From positions 1 to 38,379 of the forward strand of contig NZ_BIXY01000069.1 in assembly GCF_008326305.1 (NCBI RefSeq): a stretch of 38,379 bases of DNA. The letters are read 5' to 3'. This document shows, in pieces, positions 15,950 through 38,379 of the stretch. Each line of letters begins with the position of its first letter. The first letter of the stretch is position 1. Origin of the DNA: Dictyobacter arantiisoli (lineage in GTDB: Bacteria > Chloroflexota > Ktedonobacteria > Ktedonobacterales > Ktedonobacteraceae). The notes below the pieces were generated by a model, which searched no databases, was not told the DNA's origin, and worked only from the letters and a program-made list of their open reading frames with translations. A program made the translations under genes and the position numbers.

Positions 15950-16008
15950 AAAAAGAGAGTTTCTCCATGGTTGCTGCATGCAAGCAACCATGGAGAAACT
16001 CTCTTTTT
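15950..16008. terminator. 26-bp perfect hairpin, bidirectional terminator between galK and the pseudokinase gene
   Basis: Positions 15950-15975 are the exact reverse complement of 15983-16008, with the 7-nt loop GCATGCA. The arms begin AAAAAGAGAG and end CTCTCTTTTT, so both strands have an A-run before and a U-run after the stem. It fills the 78-nt gap between two convergent genes; the pseudokinase stop codon starts at 16012. Confidence 0.85.
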
Positions 16009-27070: not shown

Positions 27071-27192
27071 CATGAGTTTTCGCACCTACGGTGCTCAAAC
27101 ATCTTTTTATTGTGTGATGTCGGAAAAGTTCGAAGAACTTTTCCGACATCACACAATAAAAAGGGCGCAGGCGCGCATGCACCTGCCAGCAG
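27071..27192 (-). repeat. three-hairpin repeat, copy 1
   Basis: Read on the minus strand it starts CTGCTGGCAGGTGCATGC, whose CAGGTGC/GCGCCTG stem closes an ATGC loop. A central perfect 28-bp hairpin follows (27104-27131 paired with 27135-27162, loop TTC on this strand), then the mini-hairpin GCACC-GTA-GGTGC and GAAAACTC. Copy 2 lies at 35711-35835 on the plus strand with nearly identical flanks. This copy begins 40 nt behind the stop codon (27233) of the DUF2171-like gene, in the same orientation as that gene. Confidence 0.8.
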
Positions 27193-27232
27193 ATGAGCAG
27201 TAAGATCCCACTACCTGGTGAATAGTACTGAA

Positions 27233-32625: not shown

Positions 32626-34419
32626 ATGACAACAACTCCACCACCGGCCCAGCCCGAAGAAAATAACGCACATACTCATCCATTGTTTACCCGCGCTGTG
32701 CGTATGCATCGACCTTCTTTATTAAAAGATCCAACGACTTTATTCTCTGAGAAGGTTAGCTCAGAACAAAGCTCAGTATATGCTTTGTTGAAACCGCCGT
32801 TTATAGCAGCACAGCATATGCAAGCTAGTGAGCCGATTGCATGTGCTTCATCCTTTCCAGACAGTGATGTATCTGTAATACCTTCTTTCGATGTCGAAGA
32901 GGTACCTGCTGATCAACAACTCACCTGGTTGATTCCGGCAGTTGCTACTCTGGAGCGCCTGAAAAAAATGCCTTCGATAATATCCGAAGATGGCAATCCA
33001 ATGGCTTTACTTTCGAAGTTGATAAAAGATTCAGGGATATATGCTATTGCTTCCTGCTTATCGCCGCTATTATCCCTGTTTGTATCTCCGTTCTTAGCGC
33101 ATCACCTTACGTATATGGATTACGGGATGCTTATATTATTGAATACAACCATTGCTTTATTAGCTGGCCTCTCACAATGTGGTCTGGGTAGTGCTTTTGT
33201 GCAAATATATCACCGGGTTGATACATCACGAGAGACGCAACGTCGAGTATTGACCACTGTTTGCTTGCTCATGTTTATGCTTTCATGTGCTTGTTTGTTG
33301 ATAATCGCATGTGCAGCTTCGGAGATTGCGCGCTGGCTTTTGCACAATAGTGCTTATGCTTCAGTAGTTCGCATCGCGGCTTCTGTATTATTTATACAAA
33401 ATTTTGTGGTGCCCACATTAGCACTTCTGAGGGCAGAACGTCGAGCCAATCTTTTTTGTCTACTATCTGTGCTAAATCTACTTGTGGCTGCTGGCTTGAC
33501 CTATGTATTGGTTGGCATTTTGCAATGGGGAAGCAGTGGAGCTTTGCTTGCAGTGGGTGGTGGCTCCTTGTGTGTGGGAATCTGCCAATTGCCTATCATC
33601 TGGCGACGCGCTCGTTTCTGTTTAGATTGGAAAATAATAAAAGAGCTGTTTGTTTTCGGTTTATCGACAGTACCGGGTTTTTTAGCTGTCTGGATCTTGC
33701 AGCTTTCGGATCGCTATTTTTTGAGCTGGTTGGGTTTTTTATCACAGACCGCTGGCTATGGAGTGGCTTATACATTAGGAAATGTTCTTGGTCCATTAGT
33801 GATTATGCCTTTTTCTCTTGCCTGGTACTCGACCATGTATGGTATTGCCAGGCGGACAAATGCGTCGACGATCTTTTGTTTTGTTTTCCGTTGGTATTGT
33901 TTGGCATTACTCTTCTGCGCTTTTTTCGTAGCGTTGTTCGCAAATGATGTATTGACCTGGATGTTTCCTCCAGCTTACGCTTCTGCAGAGATGATCATTC
34001 CTTTTATAGCACTTGCGAATGTATTCTATGGTTTGTTTGAGCTTTTTATGGTTGGCGTTTTGTTACGAGAAAAAGTTCGTTTTACCATCTTGTTTTTACC
34101 GCTGGCGGCGGTTGTTCATATTGCCTTAAACTGTTTGCTTATTCCAAACTATGGCATAGTCGGGGCAGCGATTTCAACGCTTGTTGCCTATCTTCTGCTG
34201 GCGTGTGTGGCTTATTTTGTAAATCAGCGCATCTATCCCCTTCCGTTTGAAATTGGTTTGTTTGGATTGGCTTTATGTTTAGGTATAGTTTGGTATATCG
34301 GTGCCATGCTCTTACTGCGAGGTCAAAGTGTCGTGATGCATTGGATTATTTTAGGTGGGATTGGATGCCTCTATGGGGGAATCTTGTTTTTGTTGGGTCA
34401 CATACCAGCAAAAAAGTAG
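32626..34419 (+). CDS. Wzx-type polysaccharide flippase with long soluble N-terminal extension
   Basis: This is a MOP-superfamily flippase moving lipid-linked repeat units across the membrane, 597 aa. The membrane part (about 137-595) has some fourteen spans with family-typical LAHHLTYMDYGMLILLNTTIALLAGLSQCGLGSAFVQIYH and LIPNYGIVGAAISTLVAYLLLA. The first 130 residues are unusual: Pro/Thr/Ser/Asp-rich, no signal peptide, no recognised domain, with acidic stretches (SFDVEEVPADQQ). They are probably cytoplasmic, and could be a target of the neighbouring tyrosine kinase (inference). Start is ATG 32626, 8 nt after the Wzy gene. Confidence 0.88.
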   Translation: MTTTPPPAQPEENNAHTHPLFTRAVRMHRPSLLKDPTTLFSEKVSSEQSSVYALLKPPFIAAQHMQASEPIACASSFPDSDVSVIPSFDVEEVPADQQLTWLIPAVATLERLKKMPSIISEDGNPMALLSKLIKDSGIYAIASCLSPLLSLFVSPFLAHHLTYMDYGMLILLNTTIALLAGLSQCGLGSAFVQIYHRVDTSRETQRRVLTTVCLLMFMLSCACLLIIACAASEIARWLLHNSAYASVVRIAASVLFIQNFVVPTLALLRAERRANLFCLLSVLNLLVAAGLTYVLVGILQWGSSGALLAVGGGSLCVGICQLPIIWRRARFCLDWKIIKELFVFGLSTVPGFLAVWILQLSDRYFLSWLGFLSQTAGYGVAYTLGNVLGPLVIMPFSLAWYSTMYGIARRTNASTIFCFVFRWYCLALLFCAFFVALFANDVLTWMFPPAYASAEMIIPFIALANVFYGLFELFMVGVLLREKVRFTILFLPLAAVVHIALNCLLIPNYGIVGAAISTLVAYLLLACVAYFVNQRIYPLPFEIGLFGLALCLGIVWYIGAMLLLRGQSVVMHWIILGGIGCLYGGILFLLGHIPAKK

Positions 34420-34444
34420 CCAGGGAAAAATAGCGGAGGAGAAA

Positions 34445-35710
34445 ATGGGAGGATGGATGATGATATTAAGTAAGATTGTGAAGCATATACGTTTGAATGC
34501 TTATGTGAATAAGCCCCAATTTCAGGTTTGCATGCATGTGCTTGGCCCGGCTCGTTATAACTATCGGGTTATGAATGATGCGTTTGCTTTGCACAAGGCT
34601 GGTTATAAAGTTACTATTTTAGATGTAGTAGGGAGCTGTGACGGTTGTACAAAGGAAGTTATTGAAGGGATTTCTTTTAAGCATGTTGTGGCTCCAGGTT
34701 GGTTTATACCATCGCAATTTAAGTTCTGCTTTGTCTTGAAACTGATTGTTATGATCATGCGTTGTACTTTTTCTTTGTTATTGACGCAGGCTGATATTTA
34801 TCATGCCCACGTGGAGCATACGTTTCTCGCGTCTTATCTCGCGGCACGTATACGTCGAAAAACCTTAATCTTTGATACGCCTGAGCTCACAATGTTTGGT
34901 CCTAATATTCTACGCTGGCCTTTATTGCGACAAATGGCTATTTGGATTATTCGCCTCATGTCAAAGAATTGTACTGTGCATATTACAGGTTCGCCACTCT
35001 ATAAACCAATACTGACTGACCTCTATGGCAATAAATGCGTCCAGGTTATACGGCATATCCCTCCCCATCGCGTGGTGGTTGAGAATACATTGTTCCAGCA
35101 AACATTGCTGCTTGCTCCAGAAACGCAAATCGCTTTATACCAGGGGAATTTGCAGGAGGATCGAGAATTAGACACCCTGGTATTGGCAGCCGTTTATCTA
35201 AATCCTGGCATCGCTATTGTCATGATGGGGGATGACTATGGAAATTGTAAAAGCCGCTTGCAGACACTTATTCAGCGTGAGCAGTTAGCTGATCGCGTCA
35301 AAATTATCCCTGCTGTGCCATATGCTCAGCTATTGGATTGGACTGCCTCGGCCACTATTGGTTTAACGGTTTTACCTCCCACATATTCTCTCAGTATTCG
35401 ATTGTGTTTGCCCAACAAATTTTTTGAATATGTGATGGCTGGTTTGCCCATCCTGTCATCTCGTTTAGATGCTATCGCTGAAATGATCCAGCTTTATGAT
35501 ATTGGGCACGTGCTTGATGAATATACACCATATCAAATTGGGCAGGCCATTAATCTGATGCTGGCTGACCAGGATGAACTTCTGCGAATGCAAGCTAACA
35601 CGCGAACAGCGCTTAAAAGTGGCCTGACCTGGGAAGAAGAAAGCCAGAAATTAGTCCAAATCTATCACAAAGTGTTTGATGCTCATCACCATTGGGATCT
35701 TACTGTTTGA
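34445..35710 (+). CDS. glycosyltransferase family 4-like protein
   Basis: This is a cytoplasmic GT-B glycosyltransferase, 421 aa, probably adding a sugar to the repeat unit. The N-terminal half has GPARYNYRVMNDAFALHKAGYKVTILDV and ADIYHAHVEHTFLASYLAAR. The C-terminal donor domain has ALYQGNLQEDRELDTLVLAA, VKIIPAVPYAQLLDWTASATIGLTVLP and NKFFEYVMAGLPILSS, the E-x7-E-like loop of GT4. The donor sugar is not deducible. ATG 34445 follows GGAGGAG. It is the last gene of the exopolysaccharide cluster and the only GT-B enzyme in it. Copy 2 of the three-hairpin repeat starts directly after its stop. Confidence 0.88.
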   Translation: MGGWMMILSKIVKHIRLNAYVNKPQFQVCMHVLGPARYNYRVMNDAFALHKAGYKVTILDVVGSCDGCTKEVIEGISFKHVVAPGWFIPSQFKFCFVLKLIVMIMRCTFSLLLTQADIYHAHVEHTFLASYLAARIRRKTLIFDTPELTMFGPNILRWPLLRQMAIWIIRLMSKNCTVHITGSPLYKPILTDLYGNKCVQVIRHIPPHRVVVENTLFQQTLLLAPETQIALYQGNLQEDRELDTLVLAAVYLNPGIAIVMMGDDYGNCKSRLQTLIQREQLADRVKIIPAVPYAQLLDWTASATIGLTVLPPTYSLSIRLCLPNKFFEYVMAGLPILSSRLDAIAEMIQLYDIGHVLDEYTPYQIGQAINLMLADQDELLRMQANTRTALKSGLTWEEESQKLVQIYHKVFDAHHHWDLTV

Positions 35711-35835
35711 CCTGCTGGCAGGCGCATGCGCGCCTGTGCTCAAAAGAGTTTTAGTATGTGATGCAGAATGGGTGCTTCGCACCCATTCTGCATCACATAC
35801 TAAAACTCTTTTGAGCACCATCGGTGCGAAAATTC
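35711..35835 (+). repeat. three-hairpin repeat, copy 2, with 40-bp perfect stem
   Basis: It starts CTGCTGGCAGGCGCATGC, with a CAGGCGC-ATGC-GCGCCTG mini-hairpin. The central stem is perfect over 40 bp (35736-35775 with 35779-35818, loop TTC). It ends with GCACC-ATC-GGTGC and GAAAATTC. Flanks match the reverse complement of 27071-27192 at almost every base. It begins immediately after the stop codon (35708-35710) of the GT4 gene, in sense orientation. It may end or protect the exopolysaccharide transcript. Confidence 0.85.
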
Positions 35836-35883
35836 CTATAAAGAGAACATGAAGAGCGTAGGAACCAAACACTCTCTCACCTT

Positions 35884-35972
35884 GACTTTGTACATTTTTA
35901 AGCTTTTGAGCTTGCGAAAAAGGTCGAGTGCGACGCATTTTTGAGTTCACATTTTCAAGATTGTACAAAGTC
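35884..35972. repeat. 89-bp inverted-repeat element
   Basis: GACTTTGTACA (35884-35894) returns as its exact reverse complement at 35962-35972. Between them is a small GTCG-AGTG-CGAC hairpin and imperfectly mirrored A/T-rich sequence (CGAAAAAGG, ATTTTTGAG). It is non-coding. It could be a tiny MITE, or part of a termination or insulation region before the valS promoter. Confidence 0.4.
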
Positions 35973-36018
35973 GAGCTCACTAAATCTTATGCTGGTTTAT
36001 TGATCAGTTCTCTGTTGC

Positions 36019-36047: not shown

Positions 36048-36084
36048 TCTTCATAAGAAACAATAAATCAATAAAGACCATGAA

Positions 36085-36366
36085 CGAGCGGAGTAAAGAG
36101 ATACGATTCGTCAGAGAGTGGAGGTCATCGGGTGCAAGCCTCCTTCGAGTACGTCTCTTGAATGTGGCTCGGAAGTCGGGTATCTGAAATGCATGGTAGC
36201 CTCGATTGTGATGAGGATTACAGGTCGTTAAGATCCTTCGGGTGTGTCCGTTAACGCACGATTGAGGATAGCTTGTATTGACCAGGTTGGGCGTGCCAGC
36301 TATCAAAACAAGGTGGTACCACGAGTAGCGTTGCCCTCGTCCTTGCGAGGAGGCAACGTTTTTTTT
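36085..36366 (+). promoter_or_regulatory. T-box riboswitch (valine specific) with terminator
   Basis: The leader senses uncharged tRNA and permits valS transcription when valine is scarce. Stem I base CGAGC (36085-36089) pairs with GCTCG (36167-36171). The loop-E elements AGTA (36092-36095) and GAA (36160-36162) flank a specifier loop where GTG (36164-36166), a valine codon, is the best reading. The T-box AAGGTGGTACCACG (36310-36323) has TGGT facing the tRNA ACCA end, so discriminator A, as in tRNA-Val; Trp (codon TGG overlapping) would need G. The terminator stem CGTTGCCCTCG (36329-36339) with CGAGGAGGCAACG (36346-36358) ends in eight T. The antiterminator would use the T-box strand instead. 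Confidence 0.93.
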
Positions 36367-36394
36367 GTTAGTACACACTATAAGGAGTACTACT

Positions 36395-38252
36395 ATGTTG
36401 CCCAACCGTTATCAGTTTCGTGAGGTTGAACCTCGGCTAACGCGCCTGTGGGCGGATACTGATCTTTACACCTTCGATCCGCATGGATCTGGTCCACTCT
36501 ACACAATTGATACCCCTCCTCTAACCGTTTCAGGTGAATTGCATATTGGACATTGTTATTCATATACTCAAACGGATGTTATCGCCCGCTTTCATCGTAT
36601 GCGAGGTGAACGTGTTTTGTATCCAATGGGATTTGATGATAATGGATTGCCTACTGAACGTTTTGTTGAAAAAATACTCAAGCGTAAGGCAACTGAAATG
36701 GATCGTGCGGAGTTTCTCGCCGCATGTTTAACGCTGACTCAACAGACAGAAGATCGATTTGAGGCTCTCTGGCGACGTTTAAGTCTGAGTGTTGATTGGC
36801 ATTATCGCTATTCGACCCTTTCTCCTATAGCACAGCAAACTTCTCAGTGGTCGTTTATTCAACTCTATCGGTCCGGTCGGGCGTATGCACAATTAGCTCC
36901 AACACTCTGGTGTCCTGATTGTCAGACTGCAATTGCTCAGGCCGAGTTGGATGATAAGATGTTACCCACACTGTTTACGACCTTTGCTTTCCAGCTACCT
37001 GATGGTCGATCCCTACCAATCGCTACCACACGTCCTGAACTACTACCTGCCTGTGTTGCCATTTTTGTTCATCCCAATGATCAGCGTTATGCTTCCCTGG
37101 TTGGTTCTTCTGCACATATTGCAAGCGCTGCTTTTTCTTCGCAAGAGTCAATTGAAGTTCCTATTCTAGCTGATGAATTGGTTGATCCCGCTAAGGGAAG
37201 TGGCGCTGTTATGTGTTGTACCTTTGGTGATGCGACCGATGTGCGCTGGTGGCGTATGCATCATCTGCCATTACATGCGGCAATTGGCCGCGATGGACAT
37301 ATGACTGCTCTGGCTGGTCCGTTGGCTGGTTTGACCTCCATTGCCGCGCGCAAGTTAATTCTTCAACGTTTGTCTGAACAAGGCTTGATTTTGCAACAGA
37401 AAACAATTGAACATACCGTTGGAATTCACGAGCGTTGCGGTACACCTATTGAGTATTTGCAAACTAGACAATGGTTTATTCGTGTATTAGATCAAAAAGA
37501 GCGTTTTTTGCAAGCTGGCCGTCAGATGCGTTGGAATCCTGCCTATATGCGTAGTCGTTACGAACATTGGGTTGAGAATTTGCAGTGGGATTGGTGTATC
37601 TCACGACAGCGTTTCCTGGGGGGTCCTTTTCCTGCCTGGACTTGCCGCGCCTGTGGTGAGTTGCTGCTGGCAGAGCTAGATGATCTGCCGGTTGATCCTC
37701 TTCTCGCCGCTCCCGGACGCGCTTGCGTGTGTGGATCGAAAGATTTTGAACCTGAAACGGATGTCATGGATACCTGGGCAACATCCTCTTGTACGCCCTT
37801 GATTATTGGGCATTGGGCAGATGATCCAGTCTGGTTTCAGCGGCACTATCCGCTTAGCCTGCGCCCTCAGGCTCATGATATCATTCGTACCTGGGCTTTC
37901 TATACTATTGTCAAAGGCATCTATCATACAGATTTGCCTCCCTGGCAAGAAGTGATGATATCTGGTCATGCGCTTTCAACAGAGAGAAGTAAAATCTCTA
38001 AATCGAAAGGAAACAGTTCTGTTGATTCCATGACTTTGATCGAACAAGAGTCAGCGGATGCTCTACGTTATTGGGCCACGTCGGTTAAGCCTGGGCATGA
38101 TACTCCTTTCAATCCAGAGCTGTTAGCGTTGGGCCGCCGGCTGGTTACAAAGCTGTGGAACGCCAGCCGTTTTGCCGAGAGTCGTCTTCAAGAGTTAGAT
38201 GCTATTGCACTAACGGCACCGCCGACGCTTTTGCATTTGACCGATCGCTGGT
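36395..38252 (+). pseudogene. valS: valine--tRNA ligase, 3' end removed by IS insertion
   Basis: This is a class I synthetase that charges tRNA-Val. Start is ATG 36395, with AAGGAG seven bases upstream. HIGH motif ELHIGHCYSYTQTDV is near residue 47, followed by YPMGFDDNGLPTERFVEK, the archaeal/Rickettsia-type ValRS variant rather than the common GTDHAGIATQ form. The zinc-type WCPDCQTAIAQAELDD, the editing-domain core TTRPELLPACVAIFVHPND and the KMSKS loop KISKSKGN are present. Homology stops after LHLTDRWL (about residue 619). The frame then runs 17 codons into insertion-sequence DNA and ends at 38305. The anticodon-binding domain (about 200 residues) is lost, so the product should be non-functional unless the 3' part is rescued. 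A second valS elsewhere is expected. Confidence 0.9.
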
Positions 38253-38379
38253 TGTTTATAATGCCCCTAGAAATTCAGACAGAAAAAAGTTGGCTCGTAA
38301 GATAAAATTGATTCATGGAAAAGCAAAAAAGAAAACAACACACGGCAGAATTTAAGGCAAAAGTAGTAAAGGAGATTTT
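38253..38379 (+). mobile_element. IS3-family insertion sequence, left end (partial)
   Basis: The element begins with TGTTTATAATGCCCCTAG, where the valS reading stops matching its family. The TG start and the short leader of about 62 nt before the transposase gene are typical of IS3/IS150-type elements. The right end and target duplication are outside the window, so the exact boundary is uncertain by a few bases. Confidence 0.75.
38315..38379 (+). CDS. IS3-family transposase OrfA, N-terminal fragment
   Basis: The first 21 residues are visible before the window ends: MEKQKRKQHTAEFKAKVVKE plus one more. The pattern RKQHTAEFKAKVxxE is the standard start of the IS3/IS150 OrfA helix-turn-helix protein, which binds the element ends and is joined to OrfB by frameshifting. 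The fragment is too short for subgroup assignment. The ATG at 38315 lacks a strong ribosome site, which is usual for these weakly expressed genes. Confidence 0.8.
   Translation, partial: MEKQKRKQHTAEFKAKVVKEI

Follow-up and report, generated by a model that had tools for sequence, protein, structure and literature searches.

The Locus

Two long perfect hairpins are found in the window, by which we mean the whole stretch of 38,379 nucleotides of the Dictyobacter arantiisoli contig NZ_BIXY01000069.1 that was analysed. One of them, copy 1, provides the final codons and the stop codon of a glycosyltransferase gene; the other, copy 2, lies on the opposite strand (Table 1). A sequence-only reading of the window had described both palindromes, and its account of them was reproduced: the 28 loop-proximal arm positions comprise 18 that are identical in the two copies and 10 that differ, all 10 being compensated on the other arm, and the outer motifs are common to both copies. 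Its coordinates cover just the middle of the element, whole copy 1 reaching from one TCA duplication to the other. The predicted fold of copy 1 has an energy of -107 kcal/mol (z -11.5). Copy 2 is decayed at its left end, and no right TIR is recognisable on the other side.

Table 1. Coordinates of the two copies and of the adjoining gene in the window.
Feature	Position	Strand	Basis or remark
Glycosyltransferase gene	34355..35710	+	Last codons and stop codon inside copy 1
Whole copy 1, 209 bp	35668..35876	+	TIRs and TCA duplications
Left target-site duplication, copy 1	35665..35667		TCA, same triplet at 35877-35879
Left TIR, copy 1, partly decayed	35668..35689	+	End alignment of 76 copies
P2 hairpin, copy 1	35718..35737	+	GCAGGCGC-ATGC-GCGCCTGT; family-wide 8-bp stem
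P3 long variable palindrome, copy 1	35736..35818	+	40-bp arms (35736-35775 and 35779-35818), 100% complementary; loop TTC at 35776-35778
P4 hairpin, copy 1	35815..35827	+	GCACC-ATC-GGTGC, then GAAAA; sequence conserved
Right TIR, copy 1	35857..35876	+	End alignment
Right target-site duplication, copy 1	35877..35879		TCA; triplet match
P4 hairpin, copy 2	27082..27094	-	Sequence
P3, copy 2	27103..27163	-	29-bp arms (27103-27131 and 27135-27163), 100% complementary; loop TTC
P2 hairpin, copy 2	27167..27186	-	Sequence
Left end of copy 2, decayed	27193..27232	-	Compared with the ends of other copies

Other structured elements are present in the window as well. A member of a second repeat family, bounded by CTCGACTTTGTACAT...ATGTACAAAGTCGAG, occupies 35881-35975 directly beside copy 1; the genome contains 32 instances of ATGTACAAAGTCGAG (control 0), which frequently lie next to copies of the element described here. 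A T-box leader (RF00230, 94.9 bits) at 36071-36347 stands just upstream of a gene at 36365-38305 whose best match is valine--tRNA ligase. A perfect 26-bp inverted repeat with an A-tract and a T-tract (15950-16008) lies between convergent genes and resembles a bidirectional terminator.

A MITE Family in Dictyobacter and Its Relatives

Both hairpins are almost certainly copies of a small non-coding transposable element, a MITE. The element is non-autonomous, measures about 209 bp, carries no transposase gene of its own and reaches a high copy number, with more than 150 copies in the 7.2-Mb assembly of D. arantiisoli. With up to 3 mismatches allowed, the left outer motif is matched 131 times in the genome (control 0), and with up to 2 allowed, the right one is matched 251 times (control 1); counts so far above the controls indicate a repeat family rather than chance. 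Copies were located through the P4 motif, with 157 sites examined in this genome, and were mostly scored for the palindrome, the low-scoring ones being read one by one. Apart from assembly gaps and one chance match to the motif, the latter turned out to be deletions and a few shifted or mismatched stems; none of those read individually was a slowly eroded hairpin. The copy numbers for this genome are lower bounds because some contigs stop within the long hairpin or have runs of N at that place (L397 at the end of C18, L400 at the end of C58, L139, L155 and L089).

When about 130 copies are placed side by side, their similarity extends past the coordinates of the sequence-only reading to TIRs of about 20 bp, and a common internal order appears: left TIR, P2 with its 8-bp stem, the long P3, P4 (GCACC-NNN-GGTGC followed by GAAAA) and right TIR. 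P3 generally has about 28-40 bp per arm and a loop of 3-4 nt. TIRs are recognisable in 76 of the 113 copies in which both arms can be recognised, they fall into several sequence types (CAAAGTGTTTGATTCCC, GAGAGTGTCAGCCTCCC and GAATGTGTCGGACTCCC), and exact matches to them number 133 in the genome (control 0). Identical triplets, in most cases TNA, flank 46 of the 65 copies with both ends readable, as against a mean of 10.7 and a maximum of 21 in 5000 shuffle trials. These shared triplets represent a target-site duplication, which means that the family transposes. The copies often lie near the 3' ends of genes, on either side, in all gene orientations and with no strong strand preference, as judged with crude ORF calling in which some cases 'inside ORF' are open frames within the element. 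Such a placement is in keeping with insertions that spare promoters and coding sequence.

The search for further copies that the sequence-only reading had proposed also gave relatives in four Dictyobacter congeners, among them Dictyobacter aurantiacus and D. kobayashii, and in Ktedonobacter (Ktedonobacter robiniae belongs to the same bacterial family). Neither an absence of other copies nor a set of copies with non-complementary arms was encountered, and more than 140 distinct alleles of the repeat were collected in two genomes. At two loci of D. kobayashii (L196 and L200) a part of the hairpin together with P4 is present in many tandem repeats (e.g., CACCTTTGCTGCAACTCACCATAAAACCACTTGAG), one arm having been amplified locally. 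Across the whole sequence collection the P4 motif also matches in unrelated bacteria and archaea; no long palindrome was seen in any of the 20 inspected non-Ktedonobacteria records with a P4 match, and such matches are therefore taken as chance or unrelated. In the Akkermansiaceae MAG RYN_631 (L321, L326, L334, L341 and L345) a repeat, GAGCGCCGCAGGTGCGAAATGAGACAGCCAGGGGTGAAACCCCTGG, recurs that has only the P4-like motif in common with the MITE and is apparently unrelated. An initial search of viral contigs at the protein level gave no matches.

A Probable Autonomous Partner

Searches with DDE_Tnp_1 and DDE_Tnp_4 gave no partner with matching ends, and a search with DUF4096 gave one. In D. aurantiacus, complete IS5-family insertion sequences (NF033580) lie between TNA triplets and have GAGAGTGTCAGAGTTGCGTC or GAGTGTGTC at their ends. 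In the D. arantiisoli assembly no complete copy of the IS is assembled; six contigs break inside it, and its readable 3' end consists of the C-terminus of a homologous transposase followed by a TIR and TNA. The TIR of the IS in this genome, e.g., GATAGTGTTTGATTCCCATCAC, is the same 22 bp found at the ends of MITE copies such as L057 and L393. As it ends in the MITE's own 22-bp TIR, the IS5-family element, present in at least six copies, is the probable autonomous partner, and its transposase would move the MITE in trans.

Covariation of the P3 Arms

Covariation was assessed by explicit pair counts, with shuffled and slid structures for comparison. Among 50 different copies of the same length, 99.3% of cells are paired, and both members have changed in 19 of the 28 central pairs. 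None of 500 shuffles reaches the observed paired percentage, number of covarying pairs or score, and slid structures are only 33-55% paired. In 100 copies of D. arantiisoli, counted with the stem left untruncated, 1.95% of the inner 20 pairs are mismatched, compared with 36% when the right arms are dealt randomly. The arms of D. aurantiacus are largely different in sequence, and there the mismatches amount to 2.2% vs. 46% for shuffled arms. In Ktedonobacter the arms differ further; in most copies examined the P4 motif still adjoins a palindrome, with arms of 19-33 bp.

Signs of Arm Rewriting

Under selection on an RNA, the RNA strand can carry G.U pairs, whereas A.C is not tolerated. The mismatches that do exist comprise 13 G.T and 19 A.C pairs (p = 0.38) and 26 of transversion types, so that G.T is not above A.C, which points away from RNA selection. 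Nor does the mismatch frequency follow the decay of the remainder of the element (Spearman -0.01, p = 0.88, with a mixed consensus as the yardstick, a rough measure of age). Since preserved and decayed copies have equal mismatches, it is not intactness or mobility that keeps the arms matched.

The P3 loops occur both ways about equally: GAA/TTC 19/17, TAT/ATA 10/8 and TGT/ACA 7/7; both orientations are also present in D. aurantiacus. Flips are distributed at about 93:11 for the 8-bp stem of P2, are almost missing for the 5-bp stem of P4 and reach about 50:50 for the long P3. In yeast, spacer inversion by template switching was seen only with arms longer than 9 bp (PMC8604942), and inverted rRNA loops have been attributed to template switching (PMC8794818), a process known to yield both arm homogenisation and spacer inversion (PMC8604942, PMC8794818).

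Individual copies add to this picture. In copy 1 the left arm has grown by a stretch complementary to the conserved right flank (GTGCTCAAAAGAG), and this stretch stands in place of the family's CGCCC. L057 is a hybrid whose arms derive from two subfamilies, and six copies (L011, L092, L102, L124, L162 and L164) are collapsed and have no hairpin; hairpin-less deletion derivatives still carry TIRs. Hybrid and collapsed copies are expected as by-products of recombination and of replication that skips the hairpin. Between nearest neighbours, which are not dated orthologues, 75 pair positions differ in both arms and 30 in a single arm; as two-step paths can also give such counts, they favour single-step rewriting and are not a proof of it.

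Alternative Explanations

The sequence-only reading had offered two causes of the perfect compensation, selection on a structure and a process in which one arm serves as the template for rewriting the other. It is the second that the data support, through the lack of a wobble excess, the loop inversions, the independence from decay and the arm extension; selection on an RNA structure found no support. An RNA hairpin (a terminator, an mRNA stabiliser or a regulatory RNA) whose complementarity is kept by two-step compensatory mutation would account for the very stable fold of copy 1, the strong covariation and the many copies near gene 3' ends. However, the mismatches and the freely inverted loops disagree with it, the copies stand in every gene orientation, and no Rfam family matched at copy 1 or copy 2. 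The stem has no U-tract after it, and a terminator in particular was rejected on this ground and because any orientation preference is weak. We give selection on RNA little chance of being the explanation. The palindrome might instead have a role as DNA, forming a cruciform or a single-stranded hairpin in transposition, replication or protein binding, with unmatched copies removed by selection. In line with this, the mismatches are strand-symmetric, as fits double-stranded DNA, and from Dictyobacter to Ktedonobacter the palindrome remains beside the conserved motif GAGCRCC-NNN-GGTGCGAA despite very different arms. Nevertheless, decayed copies, which are unlikely movers, are as perfect as intact ones, the copies that lost the hairpin have retained TIRs, and selection alone leaves unexplained both the even loop inversion and the extension of an arm into the flank. 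On balance, such a selected DNA role appears improbable.

For a mobile element whose arms are perfect in most copies, one may also suppose that rewriting takes place only in transposition, for instance by way of a snap-back or hairpin intermediate, and that new copies are therefore born perfect. Decayed copies should then accumulate mismatches and show no such build-up, and no hairpin step in the centre of the element is known for IS5-family cut-and-paste; this explanation, too, seems very unlikely to hold. Least of all do we expect an element of the REP/RAYT type or another HUH (Y1) element, the class in which the sequence-only reading had suggested looking for a transposase (TnpA_REP). P2 and P4 are indeed REP-like short GC-rich palindromes, and REP elements share with the MITE short conserved palindromes in intergenic repeats, but REP/RAYT systems use a Y1 transposase. 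The family described here has TIRs, a TNA duplication and a DDE partner with IS5-family ends, and the single Y1_Tnp gene found in the genome has no MITE copy within 1.5 kb. A reading as attC/integron sites was dropped on inspection, as the R-box pattern is absent.

Proposed Mechanism

In our judgment, template switching in DNA replication is quite probably the main cause of arm matching; a mechanism of this kind is already known in principle (PMC8794818, PMC8604942, PMC7202029). The IS5-family transposase would mobilise the MITE in trans, recognising the matching ends and duplicating the TNA triplet. Mutation or recombination between copies would make the P3 arms differ. A polymerase that stalls at the extruded hairpin could switch template to the opposite arm, copy it and return, and if it crosses the loop, the loop would become inverted. 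In this way the P3 arms may remain complementary while their sequence drifts freely. It would be template switching in replication, rather than another DNA-level process, that does the rewriting, and if the mismatched pairs, about 2%, represent a steady state, rewriting would occur at a rate of the order of 100 times the point-mutation rate per site.

That the palindrome is retained from genus to genus is a hint of selection in its favour. The element may need a long perfect palindrome whatever its sequence and regenerate it by its own cycle or by host replication, which we regard as rather unlikely; if true, the transposable element would have a structural part that renews itself and is tied to no sequence.

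Comparison with Known Systems

The family shares many traits with IS-derived bacterial MITEs (review PMC10969869): these are small and non-coding, have TIRs, target duplication, many copies and a folded interior, insert at gene ends and have an autonomous partner with equal ends. Unlike them, the present family has a long central palindrome that is perfect in each copy, variable in sequence and closed by loops of either orientation. QMITE2 of Coxiella burnetii, compared by its description in the same review (PMC10969869), is similar in size (full length about 190 bp) and in its strong predicted folding; it differs in duplications of 7-9 bp and longer TIRs, and a variable perfect centre is not mentioned in that description. 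Quasipalindromes shaped by template switching (PMC8604942, PMC8794818, PMC7202029) show the same arm homogenisation, inversion of the spacer or loop and dependence on arm length, whereas they concern single loci or rRNA stems followed over a phylogeny and the present data comprise many alleles of one repeat.

Significance

The MITE family in Dictyobacter is new and preserves, with unusual clarity, a natural record of how arms are rewritten; among open-licence papers, no description of this family or of such a record in a bacterial repeat was found. By means of related strains, it offers a simple way to gauge how often, within a bacterial lineage, arms are rewritten and loops inverted. The family also constitutes a natural experiment which suggests that near-perfect covariation can arise without RNA selection, and this matters wherever covariation is taken to prove that an RNA structure is functional.
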